This document shows, one piece after another, positions 34,736 through 43,415 of a stretch of 64,000 bases of DNA. The DNA is from Rhodospirillales bacterium (lineage in GTDB: Bacteria; Pseudomonadota; Alphaproteobacteria; Acetobacterales; Acetobacteraceae). Numbering within the stretch: position 1 is the stretch's first letter; every line of letters starts with the position of its first letter. A model generated the notes under the pieces. That model saw only the letters and a list, made by a program, of their open reading frames with translations. It was not told the origin of the DNA and made no database searches. The stretch covers positions 1-64,000 of the forward strand of contig JANXTF010000068.1 in assembly GCA_025352565.1 (NCBI GenBank). The letters run 5' to 3'. The position numbers and the translations under genes were made by a program.

Positions 34736-35911
34736 ATGTCGAAGCTCGAAGCCTTGGAGGGCCTGGCGAAGTTCCAGCGCCTGCCCGTGTCCGGCCCGCA
34801 GCGGCACGCCAAGCCGCGCCGGCGGTTGTTTCCCCGCCTTGGCTTCCTGCTGTTCGTCGTGCTGCCCGTGCTGGCCACGGGCATCTACTATGAGGGTTTC
34901 GCCGCCGATCAATATATCAGCGAGGCCAAGTTCGTGGTCCGCAGCTCGAACCGGCAATCGACCACCGGGCTCGGCTCGTTCCTGACCAATGTCGGCATCT
35001 CGCGCGCGCAGGACGACACGTACCCGGTGAACGATTTCATCGTCTCGCGCGACGCGGTCAAGCTGCTGCTGGAAAAGCAGGATTTGCGCGCGATCATGGG
35101 CCGTCCGGAGGCTGACATCCTGACGCGTTACCCGAATTTCTACGGTAATGACACGTTCGAGAGCCTGTACAAGCGCTATAAGGATTTCGTCGCCGTCAAT
35201 CTCGATACATCGTCGGGCATCAGCACGCTGACGGTGCGGGCCTTCCGCGCGGGCGACGCCCAGAAGGTCGCGGTGGCGTTGCTTGGTGACGCGGAGGGGC
35301 TGGTCAATCGCATGAACGACCGGGCGCGGCATGACGCGGTCACCGTCGCGCAATCCGAGGTGGAGCGCGCCGAAAAGCGCGTGTCCGACGTCCAGGCGGC
35401 GTTGACCCAGTTTCGCCTGAAGCAGAACACGCTGGACCCGTCGAAAGCGGGCTCGGGCCTGCTCGACCTTATCGGCCGATTGTCGCAGGAATCGGCGTCG
35501 AGCAAGGCGCAGCTTTCAGAACTGCTCCGCACCTCGCCGCAGAGCCCGCAACTGCCTGGCCTGCGCAATCGCATCGGCGCGCTCGACCGGCAGATCGCCG
35601 AGGAGCAGCGCAAGATCGTCGGCGGCGACAGCTCGATCGCGAGCAGCATCGGCGACTACGAACGGCTGTTGCTCAGCCGCGAATTCGCCGACAAGTCGCT
35701 GTCGTCCTCGATCGGCTCGCTCGAAACCGCGCGTGTGGAAGCGCAACGCCAGCAGCTTTACCTGGAGCGAGTCGTCCAGCCGAATCTGGCCGACGACTCG
35801 CTGTATCCGCGGCGGATCGTCTCGATCGCGACCGTGCTGCTCGCGGCACTGCTCATCTACGGGATCGGCTGGCTCCTCCTTGCCGGCGTGCGCGAACACA
35901 CCGCAGCCTGA
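34736..35911 (+). CDS. kpsE: Capsule polysaccharide export inner-membrane protein (KpsE/BexC-like)
   Basis: A 391-residue polysaccharide co-polymerase of the KpsE/BexC type, which bridges the ABC transporter and the outer-membrane pore. There is a membrane segment near the N-terminus (FPRLGFLLFVVLPVLATGIYYEG, about 30-53), a periplasmic domain with YISEAKFVVRSS and a long helical coiled-coil region (about 200-340), and a second membrane segment near the C-terminus (IVSIATVLLAALLIYGIGWLLLAG). Start ATG 34736 begins MSKLEALEGLAKFQ. Followed 45 bp later by the KpsT-like ATPase, which supports the assignment. The matching permease is not here. Confidence 0.9.
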   Translation: MSKLEALEGLAKFQRLPVSGPQRHAKPRRRLFPRLGFLLFVVLPVLATGIYYEGFAADQYISEAKFVVRSSNRQSTTGLGSFLTNVGISRAQDDTYPVNDFIVSRDAVKLLLEKQDLRAIMGRPEADILTRYPNFYGNDTFESLYKRYKDFVAVNLDTSSGISTLTVRAFRAGDAQKVAVALLGDAEGLVNRMNDRARHDAVTVAQSEVERAEKRVSDVQAALTQFRLKQNTLDPSKAGSGLLDLIGRLSQESASSKAQLSELLRTSPQSPQLPGLRNRIGALDRQIAEEQRKIVGGDSSIASSIGDYERLLLSREFADKSLSSSIGSLETARVEAQRQQLYLERVVQPNLADDSLYPRRIVSIATVLLAALLIYGIGWLLLAGVREHTAA

Positions 35912-35956
35912 TCGTCGCGCCATGTCTGGTCTGGCGAAATTCCGGCATGTGGCCGG

Positions 35957-36610
35957 ATGATTAAGGTCGAGGAGTTGGTCAAGGACTACCACACGGAACG
36001 TGGTGTGCGGCGGATTCTGGATCGGGTTTCCTTCGAGTTCGGCCCCGGCGATACCGTGGCCGTGCTCGGGCAAAACGGTGCCGGCAAATCCACATTGATG
36101 AAGCTGGTGGGTGGGCTGGAGATGCCGACGTCGGGCAAGATCCTCAACACGATGTCCACCTCCTGGCCGCTGGCGCTGGGCGGCGGGTTCCAGGGCAGCC
36201 TGACCGGCAATGACAACATCCGCTTCATCGCGCGCATCTACGGCAAGTCCCCCGACGAGGTCCGCGAGTATGTCGCGGAGTTTTCGGAGCTTGGCGCGTA
36301 TCTCGCGATGCCGGTGAAAACCTATTCGTCGGGCATGCGCGCGCGGCTGATGTTCGGATTGTCGCTCGCGATCGACTTCGATTGCTACCTGATCGACGAG
36401 GTCATCATGGTGGGTGACCACAGGTTTCGCGAGAAGTGCAACGAACGCCTGTTCAGCAAACTGAGCGCGCGCGCCTTCCTGATCGCCTCCCACGACCCGA
36501 ATTTTCTGGCGGAGCACTGCACCAAGGCGGTCGTGCTCTACAAAGGCCGTGCCCGCGTGTTTACCGACGTGCAAGTCGCGGTCGAAGTCTATCATTCGCT
36601 GGTCGTTTAA
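35957..36610 (+). CDS. kpsT: ABC-type capsular polysaccharide exporter ATPase (KpsT-like)
   Basis: A 217-residue ATPase of the polysaccharide exporter class (KpsT/BexA/CtrD). Walker A is GQNGAGKST (about 39-47), the signature is YSSGMRARL, Walker B with the following Glu is YLIDEVIMVGD, and the switch His is in ASHD. The Glu-Val-Ile after Walker B and the late TKAVVLYKGRARVF are typical of this family. It would energise export of a lipid-linked polysaccharide across the inner membrane with a KpsM permease, which is absent from this window. Confidence 0.93.
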   Translation: MIKVEELVKDYHTERGVRRILDRVSFEFGPGDTVAVLGQNGAGKSTLMKLVGGLEMPTSGKILNTMSTSWPLALGGGFQGSLTGNDNIRFIARIYGKSPDEVREYVAEFSELGAYLAMPVKTYSSGMRARLMFGLSLAIDFDCYLIDEVIMVGDHRFREKCNERLFSKLSARAFLIASHDPNFLAEHCTKAVVLYKGRARVFTDVQVAVEVYHSLVV

Positions 36611-36616
36611 GGTTCC

Positions 36617-36718
36617 ATGACATCCGCCATTGCTGAATTGATTCTGCCGTCCTTGGCCGCTGTGGGGAGGAACGGAGGAAGCGCGGCACCGACCTTTCTG
36701 GCGACGCACCTCTTTTGA
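36617..36718 (+). CDS. Possible 33-residue leader ORF before the hydrolase fusion
   Basis: Between kpsT and the hydrolase fusion an ATG opens 33 codons (MTSAIAELILPSLAAVG...) whose TGA overlaps the TTG proposed for the fusion (TTGA at 36715-36718). The composition is not distinctive and a weak AAGG lies upstream. It could be a leader peptide coupling translation of the weak TTG start, the real N-terminus displaced by a frameshift, or chance. Confidence 0.25.
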   Translation: MTSAIAELILPSLAAVGRNGGSAAPTFLATHLF

Positions 36719-38535
36719 GCGCCGTCGAGCTTTTGAGGACGGCCGATGTTGCGGTGCGCGAGTGGCGCGGCTTCTCGAATGCCTGCTGCTACGTCACGTT
36801 CGACTCGTATTCCGATCATCGCGGACTGGATCGCGCGGGGTTCGGCGAACAATTCCTGGGCGAGCACCAGATCGACGCCATCCACGTCCTCACCCGAGAG
36901 AACGACTGGTATCAGCATGCTGAAATCCTGGAGATCTGCGCGCGTATCCGCGAATTGACCGCCGGATACGACCGTGTGATCGCCTACGGCTCCAGCATGG
37001 GCGGTTATGCGGCAATCCGGTTCGGGAGCCTTGTCGGGGCCAAATTGGCGTTCGCGCTCTCGCCGCAATTCTCGATCGACCCCAGGCGCGTGCCCTTCGA
37101 GCATCGGTGGTGCGACGCCGCGCGCATTGGCTACCTCTACGAAGACGATCCCGCGTCTTTCGTCGAGACCGCGATCATCGCCTACGACAAGGAAGACCTC
37201 GACGCCCGTCAGGTCGCGCTGTACCGGCCGCACACGCATGTGGTCGATATCGGATTGCTGGATTGCGGGCATCCCTGTTCAGGGTTCCTGGCGGAACTTA
37301 ACCTCTTGCAGAGGGCTGTGCTGGATTTGGCGCAGGGCACCTTCGACGCGGCGGCCTTCGAGCAGGAGGCACGGCGCCGACGCCGGGAATCGGGCCAGTA
37401 CTATTTCACGCTGAGCCGCAAATCGCGCAATTCCACCCGCCGACTGGCGCTCGCCGAGCAAGCGGTTCTGCGCGGCACGAGCAACATCGCCTATCTTGCC
37501 AACCTCGCCAGCATGGCGGCCGGGGCCGGCCATTTCGCGGCCGCCATGGAGGCGCTCGAACGCTGCGACGAGATCGCGCCGGCGCACCCGGTGGTGCGCT
37601 ATCACCGCAGCGAGGTGCTGGAAAAGGCCGGTGATCTGGCAGGCGCTGTCGCGGCGCTGGAAGACGTGCCTCCCGAGTTCGTCAGGACCGGCGCGCACGA
37701 ATACCGTCTCGAGATGCTGCGCGCGCGGGCGGCGGAGGCGAACCGCACGATGTCGGCGAACGAGGGCGTGCCCGTGCCGCCGCCGCCGAGCGCGGTCGCG
37801 TCGTGGCACGACGTGGCGCCGCCCAAGGGCATCGTCGCCCAGGCGCGCCGACGGCTGGAACACGCGGCCGGCTGGCTGATGCGGGCCAACGCGCTGGACC
37901 GGACCCGCCGATTGGGCATGGCAAGCATGGCGGTCGAGACGCGGGTCACGACATTCCCGTCCCCACCGCCATTCGTCACCTCATGGCAACGCCACGATTG
38001 GCTGATACGCCACCTGCCGCGCCTGCCGGTCGATCTGATTCTGGTGGGCGACTCGCTCGCGGAATACTGGCCCGCGACCGAGTGGCCGCAGTGGCGCGTG
38101 TTCAACTATGGCGTGGCGGCCGACAAGACGCAGCACGTGGTGTGGCGCCTCGGCGAACTCACGCGGCGGATCGTCGCCGCCCGCGTTGTCGTGATCGTCG
38201 GCACCAACAACCTTGGCGCGGGGGACACGCCGGAAGGCATCGTTGCCGGGATCGAGCAGGTGGTGAGGCGTGTCGGGATGCTGGTGCCGGACGCCACGAT
38301 CCTCGCGATCGAGATGCCGCCCTGCGGTCCGAATTTCGATTTTCGCGAGGATGATCGCATTGCCGCGAACCGGCTGCTCCGCGAGGCGGGATTCGTGCGC
38401 ACGCTGAACGTGGATGCCGAACTGATCGCGCCAGAGGCGGCCGACAACCCCTACTACATGGCCGACCATATTCACTTCACCCCAGAGGGATATCGGCTGC
38501 TCACCTGGCTGGCGCGGCAGGCGTTGCCGTCGTGA
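36715..38535 (+). CDS. Alpha/beta-hydrolase, TPR and SGNH-hydrolase fusion in capsule locus
   Basis: A 606-residue protein with three parts. Residues ~20-205 look like an alpha/beta hydrolase: strand YVTFDSYSD, then the nucleophile elbow YGSSMGGYAA (S94 in GSSMG), an Asp in AYDKED and a candidate His in DCGHPCSG (H186). Residues ~242-345 contain TPR-like helical pairs (NIAYLANLASMAAGAGHFAAAMEALERC). After a Pro-rich linker (~350-370), residues ~435-606 form an SGNH/GDSL hydrolase: GDSLAEYW (S447), NYGVAADKT, VGTNNLG, and DHIHFTPEGYRLL with D584 and H587. No signal peptide or membrane helix is seen. Start is a TTG at 36715 and is uncertain. Its place after kpsE-kpsT suggests acyl transfer or removal on a surface polysaccharide; that is inference. 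Confidence 0.75.
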   Translation: MSAVELLRTADVAVREWRGFSNACCYVTFDSYSDHRGLDRAGFGEQFLGEHQIDAIHVLTRENDWYQHAEILEICARIRELTAGYDRVIAYGSSMGGYAAIRFGSLVGAKLAFALSPQFSIDPRRVPFEHRWCDAARIGYLYEDDPASFVETAIIAYDKEDLDARQVALYRPHTHVVDIGLLDCGHPCSGFLAELNLLQRAVLDLAQGTFDAAAFEQEARRRRRESGQYYFTLSRKSRNSTRRLALAEQAVLRGTSNIAYLANLASMAAGAGHFAAAMEALERCDEIAPAHPVVRYHRSEVLEKAGDLAGAVAALEDVPPEFVRTGAHEYRLEMLRARAAEANRTMSANEGVPVPPPPSAVASWHDVAPPKGIVAQARRRLEHAAGWLMRANALDRTRRLGMASMAVETRVTTFPSPPPFVTSWQRHDWLIRHLPRLPVDLILVGDSLAEYWPATEWPQWRVFNYGVAADKTQHVVWRLGELTRRIVAARVVVIVGTNNLGAGDTPEGIVAGIEQVVRRVGMLVPDATILAIEMPPCGPNFDFREDDRIAANRLLREAGFVRTLNVDAELIAPEAADNPYYMADHIHFTPEGYRLLTWLARQALPS

Positions 38536-38585: not shown

Positions 38586-39671
38586 TCAGGCCGACAAGCG
38601 GCCGCCGAGATATTCGTCCACCGAGGCGGCCTGCGGCACCAAAGCGGGTCCCGGCGTCAGTGAAACGAAACCCACCGCGATATGGCCCTCGAAGGCGGGG
38701 CGCTCGATCCAGACGCGGATCTCCACGGCGCGATCCGGGTCTTCGATGGTGAAATCGAGGTTCACCTCGTAGACGCCGGCCGAGTCGGGCGTGATAGTGG
38801 TATGCGCGATGCGCTCGTTGGTCGCCACATCCACTGTGAACGGCACGCCCACGGTTTCGGTGGAGAAACCGAGCACCATGCGGGCCTTCCAGTTGCCCGC
38901 GAACACCTGCATATAGGGGCCGAACACGAGGCACCGCGCGCGCCCGGCGATGTCGATGTCGCGCATCGCGGCTTCGGCCGGCGCATCGGCAATCCCGAAC
39001 AGATCGCGCGGCCAGACCAGCTTGCCGAACGGGCGGCCCGCGAAGGCCTCGGTGTAGGTGCCGAGAGTCTCATCGAGAATGGCACGATCACGTTCCGTCA
39101 GGCCCTCGAACGTCGCGCGCAGGCTGCCCGTGATCGCGTCGTCGCTCGCTTGCCCGGCGGCGGCGAGGAACGGCTCCGGGCATGCGGACGCGCATTCCGC
39201 GACGATGTCGGCAATGCCCGGCTCCGTGATCGCAAGGCCGAGATGGCTGGCCAATGCGCGCACGGTGCCAGGCAGGTCAGCGCCATCGCGGCCCGGATTC
39301 AGCACCAGGGCATTTTCGGCACGCCCGAAAGCCATCAGCGTGACGCAGCATCCGGAGATGATGCGGACGGCGGCCACCACCGAGTGCGCGTGGGTGGCGA
39401 CCAGATAGAGCGCGCTGCGCGTCGGGTCGTCGAGGAACACGACCATCGGCTTGACCGAGGCCAGCAGCGCCTTGCGCAGCCGCGCATCCGGCTGGCGGAC
39501 AGCAACCACGATGTCATCCGCTTCCGACACGATCACGGTCTCGGCGATGGCGTCGAGCGTGTTCGCCAGGATGAATTGCGGAGGCCCGTAGGTGCGGCCG
39601 ATCAGGGCGGCGATGACGGCCTCTCCCCAATCGGTGAACAAGCCCGGCAGACCGATGGACAGGACCATCAT
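38586..39671 (-). CDS. Unknown protein beside the polysaccharide export lipoprotein
   Basis: A 361-residue protein I do not recognise. The first half is mixed helical, with SALYLVATHAHSVVAAVRIISGCC and AFGRAENALVLNPGRDG; the second half, from about RCLVFGPYMQVFAGNWKARMVLGF, is beta-rich and resembles a jelly-roll, with YEVNLDFTIEDPDRAVEIRVWIE. The tail is similar in feel to the unknown protein at 18056, another glycan-cluster gene. No signal peptide is obvious. Start ATG 39671; the Wza/KpsD-like gene ends 11 bp upstream, so the two are probably co-transcribed. A role linked to polysaccharide production or regulation is guessed from position only. Confidence 0.7.
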   Translation of the reverse strand: MMVLSIGLPGLFTDWGEAVIAALIGRTYGPPQFILANTLDAIAETVIVSEADDIVVAVRQPDARLRKALLASVKPMVVFLDDPTRSALYLVATHAHSVVAAVRIISGCCVTLMAFGRAENALVLNPGRDGADLPGTVRALASHLGLAITEPGIADIVAECASACPEPFLAAAGQASDDAITGSLRATFEGLTERDRAILDETLGTYTEAFAGRPFGKLVWPRDLFGIADAPAEAAMRDIDIAGRARCLVFGPYMQVFAGNWKARMVLGFSTETVGVPFTVDVATNERIAHTTITPDSAGVYEVNLDFTIEDPDRAVEIRVWIERPAFEGHIAVGFVSLTPGPALVPQAASVDEYLGGRLSA

Positions 39672-39682
39672 CGGCCGGCTTC

Positions 39683-40858
39683 CTATTTCGCCGCGCTGTA
39701 CAGGCTTGCGCCGCCAATGATCGGCCCGGTGATGGAGCCGATGATCGAGAGGAATTTCTGCACGTTCGTGAGCGGCGCGTTCGACACGTAGAGAATATCC
39801 TTGTCGCGCATCGGGAATTGCTTGGCCGCGAAGAACGAGGCGGCATTTTGCATGTCGAGCCGGAAGATCACCGGCACCAGGCGCTGGGCGGCCGGAATGC
39901 GGTATTGCGGCGAAAGCTGGGTCACGATCTCGGACGGCTCCATTCGCATCAGGAACACGCCGCGCGGGTCGGAGCGGTAATCCTGCAAGCCGCCGGCCTT
40001 TGCCATGGCGATCTCGAGCGTGAGGTCGTCCTGGTCGATCGAGAACAGCGAATTGTTGCCGACCGCGCCGAAAGCGGTGAAGGCGCGCGGCGTGCGGGTG
40101 AGGGTGAGGGTGTCACCGGGCCAGACATAGATGTTCTCGCGCGGGTTGGTCACGATCGTGGACAGGGGAAAGCGCACCGTGCTGCCGCCGCGGGTGAGTT
40201 GGACATACATCTCGAACACCGGCGCGCGGATGCCGCCGGCCTGGGCGATCACGTCGAGGATGCGGTCGCCCTGGGGCGAGAGGGACACGCGCGAGCCGGA
40301 GATCACCTCGCCGGCCACGGTCACGGTGCGGCTGACGTTCTTGGCGATGGTGACGACCACCTGCGGGTCATCGGTCTTGCCGCTCAGCGCAGCGACGATC
40401 TTCTGCTGGACGGCGGTGGGGGTGGAACCGGCGGCGCGGATCTGGCCCGCGAACGGCACGGTGATGGTGCCGTTGGGGCCCACCATCTGCTCGGGTAGCG
40501 GCACGCCGCGCGATCCGGTACTGAGCGATTGCGCGGTCGGCAGGCTGCTGAACAGGCCGCCGGAGGCCGCCTCCCAGATGGTCACGTTGATGACGTCGCC
40601 GACGCCGATGACCGGGCTCGGGGGCGGGCGGATGTCGCCGAAGCGTTGCAGCGGCGTGTCGCGGATTTCCTGATTGAGGATGCCGACGACCCGGCTATCG
40701 ATATCGACCACGTCGTAGTTGGAGACCAGAGTCGCGCCGTTCTCGGTCACGCTCTGCTTGCGGATCTCGGAAAGCGTCGGCCCCGAGGAGGGCAGGGTGC
40801 AGGCGGCAAGACCCGGAACCAACAGCAGCACGGACCACGCAAGACGCGATTTAATCAT
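39683..40858 (-). CDS. Polysaccharide export outer-membrane lipoprotein (Wza/KpsD-like)
   Basis: A 391-residue outer-membrane polysaccharide export protein. The N-terminus is a lipoprotein signal (MIKSRLAWSVLLLVPGLAAC, with lipobox LAAC). The Poly_export domain follows: VIGVGDVINVTIWEA, then VGPNGTITVPFAGQIRAAGSTPTAVQQKI, then SLBB-type domains (TVTVAGEVISGSRVSLSPQGDRILDVIAQAGGI and further repeats to ~325). It forms the pore through which KpsE/KpsT-exported polymer leaves the cell. It is transcribed opposite to kpsE-kpsT and with the unknown 361-residue gene downstream. Confidence 0.93.
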   Translation of the reverse strand: MIKSRLAWSVLLLVPGLAACTLPSSGPTLSEIRKQSVTENGATLVSNYDVVDIDSRVVGILNQEIRDTPLQRFGDIRPPPSPVIGVGDVINVTIWEAASGGLFSSLPTAQSLSTGSRGVPLPEQMVGPNGTITVPFAGQIRAAGSTPTAVQQKIVAALSGKTDDPQVVVTIAKNVSRTVTVAGEVISGSRVSLSPQGDRILDVIAQAGGIRAPVFEMYVQLTRGGSTVRFPLSTIVTNPRENIYVWPGDTLTLTRTPRAFTAFGAVGNNSLFSIDQDDLTLEIAMAKAGGLQDYRSDPRGVFLMRMEPSEIVTQLSPQYRIPAAQRLVPVIFRLDMQNAASFFAAKQFPMRDKDILYVSNAPLTNVQKFLSIIGSITGPIIGGASLYSAAK

Positions 40859-40917: not shown

Positions 40918-42276
40918 TTACGAAGATGCCCCGGTGGGGGAATCCTCGTTCGGGGAGATTTGGGTCACACCAAGCCTGGCATACATCGCGGCCAGGCGCT
41001 CGCGGTAGCGTTCCGGGCTGAACATCTCGGCGCGCACCGGGCCGGCCTGCGACAGGCGTTGCCGCAAGGCCGCGTCCGAATCGAGCGCACGGATCGCCTC
41101 GACCATGCCACGCACGTCGTAGGGATCGATCGTGAGGGCTGCATCGCCCACCAATTCGGGAAGCGAGGCCGCGGTGGAGGTCATCACTGGGGTGCCGAGA
41201 TGCATGGCTTCCAGCACCGGCAGGCCGAAACCCTCGTACAGCGAGGGGAACAGCACCGCCTTGGCGCCCCGCACCAGGCTCATCAGCAGCGAGAACGGCG
41301 CGTAGTCGAGCAGCATGATCCGGTTGCGGGTGAAGGTGCGCGGGCCGTCGCTGACCAGATAGCGGATGTTGTCGTCGAACATCAGGCGGAGTTCGCCCTC
41401 GGATTTCCAGGCCTTCTTGCCGACGATCACGAGCGGCGCCGAGACGCCACTGGCAAGATACGCCTCGATCAGCCGCCCCACGTTCTTCTTCGGCTCGATG
41501 GCGCCGAAGAAGAGGTAATAGCCTTTGGAAGCAAGCCCGAAGCTGCCGAGAATATCGCCGCTCACTTCCGCATCGGACATGGTGCGGTAGGTCTCGGGAA
41601 TTTCCACTGACTGGTAGGTGTTCACCACGCGGTCTTCCGCAATGCCCAGAAGTTCCACGATGTCGCGCTTGGAGCACTCGGAAACCGTGACGATGAGGTC
41701 CGCCGTGGCGGCGATCTCGCGGCTTAGGCGCAGGTAGCGGCGTTTGTTGTCCAGCGTGGTGAACGGCAGGCGCAGGGGCACCAGATCGTGCAAGGTGTAG
41801 ATGTTACGGGCACCCTTGACGCTGACGGGCACCGGGTAGGTCCAGTGCATGATGTCGGGGGGTGGCTCGGGGAATTTCACCGGCAGGCGGTGGCCGGTGG
41901 CGTCGAACGCGGTGTCGGCCAGGGGGAACAGGTCGCGCACGTTCCAGATCTCGTCCGCGACCGGCAGGCTTTGGGAGATCACCGCCCCCGTGACCGGCAC
42001 GCGCCATGCCTTCTGGCCGAACGGGTGGCCTGCCAGGCGGCGATATCCTCTCAATGTTTGCAACCACTTGGGCACCCGCTTGCTGGCCGGGTCGAAGAAG
42101 GCGATCTCGCGGGCCAGGAGGTCTTTCGAGGCGCCGGCGCGGCGGCCGTACAGGATGCCGACGTCATGGCCCATGCCGCGCAGCGCACGGCTCAGGTTTC
42201 GCGCGTAGGTGGCGACCCCAGTGCCTTGTTCGAGCGTGAGATTATAGCCATCGACGAAGATGCGGGTGGGCTTCAT
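40918..42276 (-). CDS. GT4-type glycosyltransferase
   Basis: A 452-residue GT-B glycosyltransferase. The acceptor lobe starts [28 protein letters not shown]; the donor lobe carries [19 protein letters not shown] and [27 protein letters not shown] with the E-x7-E pair of family 4 enzymes. It would transfer a sugar to the exported polysaccharide. Start ATG 42276 ([12 protein letters not shown]). It lies directly upstream of the export lipoprotein gene on the same strand (59 bp gap) and downstream of the FAD oxidoreductase. Confidence 0.93.
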
Positions 42277-42308
42277 GGGCGGTGCAGTAGGCCAAGAAGT
42301 CGGTTGTG

Positions 42309-43415
42309 TCACGCCGCGCGGGCCAGGCCGGCGACCTGGGCGGCGATCGCCATGGACGCCGTGAGGCCAGGGCTTTCGATGCCGAACAGGTTGATAAGGC
42401 ACGGCAATCCGTGCTTGGCCTCGCCCTGGATCACGAAATCCTGGCCCGGCGCACCCGGCGGCACGATTTTCGGCCGGATGCCGGCATAGCCGGGCAGTAG
42501 GGCACCATCGCGCAGATCCGGCCAGTACCGTCGTACCGCCGCATAGAATCCATCGGCGCGCGACGGATCGACGCGGTAATCCAGCGTATCCACCCACTCC
42601 ACATCGGGTCCGAATCGGGCCTGGCCACCGAGATCGATGGTCAGATGCACCCCCAAACCGCCGGGCACCGGCACCGGATAGATCAGCCGCGAGAACGGCG
42701 AGCGGCCGGCCAGCGAGAAGTAACTCCCCTTCGCATAATAGGCGCGCGGCACCATCTGGCTTGGCATCCCCTTGATATCGCCCGCCAATCCCGGGGCGTG
42801 CAGTCCCGCCGCATTCACCACCATGCGGCACCGCAGCGTGGTCGTTTCCGCGCCCCCCACCTCCAGTTCGATCCGCGCGCCGGCCACCCTGCCGCCCAGG
42901 ACGGGGCTGTGGAACACGAAGATCGCGCCATCGCTTTCGGCGTCGCCCTGGAACGCCAGCATCAGCCCGTGGCTGTCGATGATGCCGGTTGTCTCGGACA
43001 GCAGGGCCGCCGTGCAAACCAGGCTCGGCTCCATCGCGCGGGCCTCCGCGGCGCTCAAAAGCCGCATTCCAGCGACACGATTCGCCTCCGCCCGGTCACG
43101 GATTCCGCCTAATCGGTGATTTTCCGCCTCTGAAACGGCCACGATCAGCTTGCCGCAGGCCCGGAAATCCACCCCTCTCTCCGCGCAATAGTTATACAAC
43201 ATATCTTTCCCCTCCACGCAGAGCCGGGCCATCAGGCTGCCTTGCGGATAGTAGATCCCGGCATGGATCACCTCGCTGTTGCGCGACGAGGTCGCGGTCC
43301 CGATCGCTTCGGCCGCCTCCAGCACGATCACCTCGCGCCCCATCGCGGCCAGCGCGCGGGCCACGGCCAGTCCCACCACCCCGGCACCCACCACCACGCA
43401 ATCGACATCTTCCAT
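42309..43415 (-). CDS. lhgO: FAD-dependent oxidoreductase, LhgO-like
   Basis: A 368-residue DAO-type flavoenzyme resembling L-2-hydroxyglutarate oxidase. The Rossmann start is [30 protein letters not shown] (GxGxxG and terminal Glu), followed by [22 protein letters not shown], the phrase typical of LhgO, and a C-terminal [21 protein letters not shown] and [17 protein letters not shown]. It would oxidise L-2-hydroxyglutarate to 2-oxoglutarate with electrons passed to the quinone pool. Start ATG 43415 (MEDVDCVV). It is divergent from the substrate-binding protein with only 50 bp between starts. Confidence 0.85.

Follow-up and report, generated by a model that had tools for sequence, protein, structure and literature searches.

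The window analysed here, a stretch of 64,000 nucleotides from a Rhodospirillales bacterium of the Acetobacteraceae (assembly GCA_025352565.1, contig JANXTF010000068.1), holds a set of polysaccharide export genes around a reading frame for a three-part protein. On the + strand, a gene for a KpsE-like inner-membrane export protein (34736-35911; TIGR01010, E 6.5e-91, 305 bits, under the model's cut-off of 437.5) is followed by one for a KpsT-like ABC ATPase (35957-36610; PF00005), for which polysaccharide-export ATPase models rank first. A frame encoding an alpha/beta hydrolase (ABH) domain, a TPR region and an SGNH domain in one 606-residue protein (36715-38535) begins 104 bases after the KpsT-like gene on the same strand, and the TIGR01010 and ATPase matches bear out the initial annotation, which had placed this fusion directly after kpsE-kpsT. 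Tail to tail with it lies an opposite-strand set comprising a 361-residue protein (38586-39671, -), a KpsD/Wza-like polysaccharide export protein (39683-40858, -; PF02563, E 2.4e-17) and a GT4-type glycosyltransferase (40918-42321, -; PF00534, E 1.9e-20), the starts of the latter two being uncertain. The kpsE and kpsT genes are adjacent (34736-36610), with no KpsM gene in between. Elsewhere in the same genome, two KpsC/KpsS-like genes stand side by side on another contig (L178:9633-12377), and an ABC-2 permease (PF01061) that we took by eye for KpsM is found on a third (L181:390-1124, -). Because the KpsC/KpsS-like pair and the KpsM-like permease sit on other contigs, a Kps-type pathway is likely present in scattered form. 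Neighbouring genes were located by tblastn, because lower-GC genes escape the gene caller.

The 361-residue protein has no family match in Pfam, NCBIfam (E≤1) or PADLOC, and its profile gave weak matches in the PDB, to repeat proteins only. The C-terminal part of the protein (about residues 220-345) recurs at four further loci (L092, L114, L117 and L125), where each copy adjoins KpsE/T/D or glycosyltransferase genes, and we regard it as a candidate new capsule-locus family. In the congener G001 (L059/L092), the only further member of the genus whose genome was searched, the same KpsT, 361-residue protein, KpsD and glycosyltransferase genes surround the fusion.

The fusion runs through 606 codons, the length given for it earlier, in a single frame without an internal stop. 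Its exact start is uncertain; the start codon is TTG, no clear ribosome-binding site was seen ahead of it, and the alignments of relatives to the fusion protein begin at residues 3-6. Residues 1-210 (36715-37344, +) form the ABH domain, a CsaC/Asp2-like putative glycan O-acetyltransferase assigned from a structural model, structure matches and residue counts; the Pfam model Abhydrolase_6 matches residues 38-177 below its cut-off (E 7e-4). The TPR region, residues 211-340 (37345-37734, +), is defined by the helices of the model, by matches to TPR structures and by Pfam TPR_19 in a single short stretch (residues 269-322; 27.2 bits against a cut-off of 25). A linker that is not conserved, residues 341-405 (37735-37929, +), leads to the SGNH domain, residues 406-606 (37930-38532, +), of a kind resembling PAF acetylhydrolase (PAF-AH) and sialate O-acetylesterase; it is assigned from Pfam (Lipase_GDSL_2 at residues 444-595, E 3.9e-15, 57.2 bits against a cut-off of 32.9), a PDB sequence match, its model and structure matches. 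The catalytic positions read earlier from the translation are all in place, with S94 in GSSMGG (codon 36994), H186 in GHP (37270), S447 in GDSL (38053) and D584-x-x-H587 (38464 and 38473), and the description of two unrelated serine-nucleophile domains joined through TPRs, with intact active-site residues, is upheld.

The junction between the domains is real, because the same single-frame fusion recurs in the congener, where it is 64% identical over its full length, and in L095, L096 (a Hyphomicrobiales MAG) and L099 (Bosea sp. Root381). The possibility of a frameshift artefact is ruled out, the fusion being open and conserved in L092, L095, L096 and L099. A reading as a defence gene was discarded, there being no PADLOC match at E≤0.01. 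The initial annotation had named separate coding of the two parts in relatives, with a frameshift at the junction, as grounds for doubt; the parts are indeed often separate genes in relatives, or only one is present, but the frameshift is not borne out. Between the window and L092, identity is 74% in the ABH domain, 68% in the TPR region, 64% in the SGNH domain and 20% in the linker. Among all fusions the corresponding ranges are 47-74% for ABH, 38-64% for SGNH and 11-20% for the linker, the pattern that a free tether between two domains under selection would give.

An AlphaFold2 model of residues 1-345, built on an alignment of 57 sequences, reached a pLDDT of 95.9. When VIA-align was run over the chains ranked highest by Foldseek, Gap2 (6oyc_B) was the top match among the 50 listed, with a Z of 17.0 over 200 residues, and the CsaC entries 6yuo, 6yuv, 6yuq and 6yus scored Z 15.4-16.0 (rmsd 3.1-3.2, 192-193 residues); the remaining 45, judged by titles and ranges, are TPR or TPR-like helical proteins. 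The best non-TPR structure matches among those listed are two glycan O-acetyltransferases, Gap2/Asp2 and CsaC. Foldseek placed CsaC chains at ranks 2-5, in a near-tie with the esterase 5lcn (E 4.1e-4 and TMq 0.40, against 1.4e-4 and 0.41 for CsaC), so that fold alone does not decide the class. At the level of sequence, CsaC is absent from the PDB matches to ABH family profiles at E≤1 and at E≤10, and Gap2 appears at E 0.6 only. The idea of a CsaC/OatC likeness had been drawn from the literature ahead of the fold result.

Excerpts of the CsaC report (PMC7501274) describe an enzyme that acetylates the meningococcal A capsule through a triad, S114-D198-H228, extended by Q138; the Q138A substitution lowers transfer by 96.8%, R148 binds and places the acceptor, and His201, at Asp+3, holds the glutamine. 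In the ABH domain of the fusion, Q118 (codon 37066) lies at Ser+24, matching the spacing of CsaC Q138, and we infer the spatial equivalence of the two from this spacing and the fold. Another conserved residue, R131 (37105), lies at Ser+37, where the acceptor-binding R148 of CsaC is at Ser+34, and D158 (37186) supplies the catalytic acid that the initial annotation had left unnamed. D158 is present in every one of the 109 ABH sequences in the alignment, that of the window among them; S94 is kept in 108 (in 80 loci the search motif itself demanded the Ser), R131 and H186 also in 108, and Q118 in 106, and all five residues are invariant in the 57-row alignment. Leu replaces Q118 in three sequences, including two ABH copies from L078. 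Both the Ser and the His are missing from L084. The family has no His at Asp+3, where CsaC has His201. Position 166, at Asp+8, is His in 99/109 sequences and Gln in 10/109, and its His is a candidate partner of Q118. In the window, which belongs to the latter group, residue 166 (codon 37210-37212) is Gln, and in the congener L092 it is His.

We consider it likely that the ABH domain is a glycan O-acetyltransferase, a 'writer' of the CsaC/Asp2 kind. The absence of CsaC from the profile matches, the lack of a His at the spacing of His201 and the Gln at 166 in the window count against this. The domain is probably not a hydrolase, because its best non-TPR matches are glycan O-acetyltransferases and a Gln stands at the CsaC position, and the term 'dual hydrolase' used for the protein earlier gives way on this point. 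That both domains are hydrolases after all, with acylated sugars or different esters as substrates, is a reading to which generic hydrolase Pfam models (matching 11-12 of 20 ABH members), the closeness of 5lcn in Foldseek and, in the excerpts of PMC7501274, the fact that CsaC's own best DALI relative is an esterase lend some weight. Gap2 and CsaC nevertheless outrank 5lcn by VIA-align, in which 5lcn is not among the 50 matches listed, and the CsaC authors suggest, in the same excerpts, that the Gln found here in nearly all aligned sequences marks transferases; we judge two esterases unlikely.

For the SGNH domain the model drew on no more than five sequences and reached a pLDDT of 82.6. Its nearest relative is PAF acetylhydrolase Ib (phmmer E 2.6e-13 in the PDB; Z 22.0), followed by the Bacteroides sialate O-acetylesterase EstA (Z 20.1). 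The alpha subunits of the former and EstA share the SGNH fold and the active-site residues with the fusion; they differ in being separate enzymes, 18-27% identical to its SGNH domain. In the window S447, G466, N498/N499, D584 and H587 are all in place, in active-site roles that we presume to be those of the PAF-AH residues. The Ser is present in four of the five fusions, and the Gly, Asn and Asp-x-x-His in all five. The L095 fusion has Ala (GCC) in place of this Ser, either an error or a natural loss, and perhaps an error because the coverage of the contig is 1.33. The genome of the window has two further SGNH genes, and at E≤0.001 no ABH match besides that of the fusion. From the model and the kept residues, we lean towards a putative role of the SGNH domain in removing O-acetyl groups, that is, as an 'eraser'.

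SGNH domains can also be transferases, and in excerpts of the work on OafA/OafB-type proteins (PMC7448272) both domains are needed. By analogy with AT3-SGNH and MBOAT-SGNH proteins, the ABH domain could load an acetyl group and the SGNH domain pass it on or add a second one, and the SGNH domains of OatA (Z 14.1) and PatB do occur among the structure matches. The two structures nearest to the SGNH domain are acetylhydrolases, however, and L095 retains the ABH residues with Ala, possibly in error, in place of the SGNH Ser. The fusion is also without a membrane part, so no relay across a membrane is needed, and we hold a relay or dual transferase to be improbable compared with a writer joined to an eraser.

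A scan of genome contigs with a single protein as query found nothing; an alignment-based scan of named genomes returned 476 ABH-TPR relatives, and the best 80 of them were taken further. Four of these 80 (L092, L095, L096 and L099) continue into SGNH without leaving the open frame; in the sequence examined for the other 76, SGNH is not matched at E≤1e-4. In the family of the window, the N-terminal part is matched at E≤1e-10 in 62 of 299 genomes; among the 20 loci first fetched around those matches, SGNH is in frame only at that of G001, and no fusion beyond those of G000 and G001 was found among 60 relatives. Six of 385 genomes of the class have a match, with no other fusion. The 81 relatives of the Bosea strain yielded nine matches, and only Bosea itself extends past residue 412 of 603; the L095 and L096 genomes, each compared with 60 relatives, likewise yielded no further fusion. 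Cultured strains carrying ABH-TPR relatives include Bosea, Sphingomonas, Brevundimonas and Acidisphaera.

A tree built from 91 ABH sequences groups four fusions with four unfused sequences in a well-supported eight-row set, and places the fifth fusion, that of L099, elsewhere. The fusion label needs three changes on this tree, a number as low in 1 of 500 shuffles, and both a single gain with losses and transfer are possible origins. The two activities are linked in the five fusions and also at L078 (6163-12760, -), where three SGNH and three ABH-TPR genes lie side by side in 6.6 kb. The SGNH proteins of this run may act outside the cytosol because they start with signal-like stretches. Tandem ABH-TPR genes in two or three copies occur in L145, L148, L150, L159 and L170 (Ancylobacter, Loktanella, Marivivens), and in L086 and L087, whose frames span 987 and 807 codons, a very long array of TPRs comes after the ABH domain.

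Three of the five fusions (window, L092 and L095) adjoin kps genes. In the two genomes of the genus alike, the fusion sits between kpsT and the kpsD-glycosyltransferase genes, and the L095 fusion is adjoined by KpsD, a KpsC/S-like gene and two glycosyltransferases. The fusions of L096 and L099 have no kps genes nearby and stand among unrelated genes. For the wider family, KpsE, KpsT, KpsD or the 361-residue protein lies within flanks of ≤8 kb at 10 of the best 80 loci. Most ABH-TPR genes in 20 loci without the fusion, read by eye, stand beside housekeeping genes; two of the loci read have sugar genes near ABH-TPR, NeuB with a cytidylyltransferase in L153 and a DegT aminotransferase in L100. 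Names of neighbouring genes (L093, L099, L103, L112 and others) were read by eye, save two sets of ten proteins that were searched. A PF02563 gene lies within 20 kb of ABH-TPR in 4 of 50 genomes (L095, L117, L122, L154), against about 1.4 expected, and within 40 kb in 8 of 50 (adding L159, L116, L121, L107), against about 2.9, the expected counts deriving from 160 PF02563 matches summed by hand, 150 of them listed. A count from coordinates alone, 13 of 50 genomes with such a gene within 10 kb, was mostly dropped after a contig check (two nearest candidates). The family-wide link of ABH-TPR to capsule export is weak, about threefold. The initial annotation had asked about co-occurrence with kpsE/kpsT in related genomes; this stands for three of the fusions and not for L096 and L099, nor more than weakly for unfused relatives.

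These neighbourhoods bear on whether the same chemistry might serve another substrate, a different glycan or a small molecule, with the kps location being incidental. The unrelated surroundings of L096 and L099, the housekeeping neighbours of most unfused genes and the modest PF02563 excess at 40 kb all accord with this. The arrangement shared by both genomes of the window's genus, the company of the L095 fusion and the ten loci with export genes or the 361-residue protein speak for the capsule instead, and we rate an incidental location as rather unlikely. The substrate that we favour for the fusion is a polysaccharide exported by the Kps system. Kps systems complete their chains inside the cytosol. 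A simple hydropathy window found no signal peptide or membrane segment in any of the five fusions, and the place of the fusion therefore fits a Kps system with cytosolic chain completion. Six stand-alone SGNH proteins, unlike the five fusions, show signal or membrane stretches by the same measure.

We tentatively propose a putative cytosolic two-enzyme module for acetylating the Kps-exported polysaccharide, based on the residues, models and gene order described above. In this module S94, aided by H186 and D158 and by the additional Q118, would probably take an acetyl group from acetyl-CoA, and the acetyl would then, with similar likelihood, be handed to a sugar hydroxyl placed by the conserved R131. 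The SGNH domain (S447-D584-H587) would fairly probably remove O-acetyl, as PAF acetylhydrolase Ib and sialate O-acetylesterase do. Both domains might work on one and the same cytosolic chain ahead of its export, the TPR region would perhaps dock the enzyme to the machinery that makes or exports the chain, and one polypeptide could conceivably thereby set the degree of acetylation. The earlier suggestion of a protein that may bind and remove acyl groups on a surface polysaccharide is thus supported in part: adding and removing such groups is a plausible role for the modelled domains, and the form with two hydrolases is not supported.

Among described systems, the capsule enzyme CsaC (PDB 6YUO) of serogroup A N. 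meningitidis shares with the fusion the ABH fold (Z 16.0), the triad, the Gln at Ser+24, the lack of a signal peptide, and a gene beside ABC-type capsule export genes; a conserved Arg lies in the lid stretch of each, at Ser+34 in CsaC and at Ser+37 here. CsaC differs in being a single domain with no sequence similarity found, whereas the fusion adds TPRs and SGNH and has no His at the Asp+3 position of His201. Asp2/Gap2 (PDB 6OYC), the best ABH structure match, shares the Ser-Asp-His triad, through which Asp2 acetylates GlcNAc on GspB in excerpts of PMC5578698; these proteins differ in belonging to accessory Sec operons of Gram-positive bacteria, where Asp2 modifies serine-rich-repeat glycoproteins. 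No accessory Sec operon was found at the fusion, whose neighbours are KpsE, KpsT, KpsD, a glycosyltransferase and the unmatched protein. The ABH-type capsule O-acetyltransferases OatC/CssE and E. coli K15 ORF5 resemble the fusion by description in a GXSXGG elbow, a triad and a capsule locus (PMC3046976 and PMC7387560, in excerpts), and K15 ORF5 is listed there under UPF0227, a Pfam family that weakly matches the fusion protein (E 0.29). OafA/OafB (PMC7448272, excerpts) likewise fuse an acyltransferase domain to SGNH for sugar acetylation, but theirs is a membrane AT3 domain with a periplasmic SGNH, against a soluble ABH-TPR part here; the fusion has no Pfam match to a membrane acyltransferase domain and no membrane segment by hydropathy. 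In Klebsiella, KpACE erases and WcsU writes capsule acetylation, and the balance between them is important (PMC11556721, excerpts); there the two are separate proteins, not one polypeptide.

We found no description of the ABH-TPR-SGNH architecture, or of a function for the ABH-TPR family, in the open-access literature searched. In the reports cited, the writing and the erasing of capsule acetyl groups fall to proteins of their own (WcsU and KpACE; CsaC alone). We raise, with some doubt, the possibility that a single putative enzyme, drawn from a broad Gln-extended ABH-TPR acetyltransferase family of Alphaproteobacteria, both writes and erases O-acetyl groups ahead of export. If this is true, polysaccharide acetylation would be balanced within one enzyme before the chain leaves the cell. 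The family also bears on a question raised by the CsaC authors, who point out in PMC7501274 that other, uncharacterised proteins have this Gln too and ask if its presence makes a transferase out of an esterase. For ABH proteins of that sort the answer would be directly testable here, because the family offers hundreds of relatives, a Gln kept in nearly all aligned members and cultured carriers.
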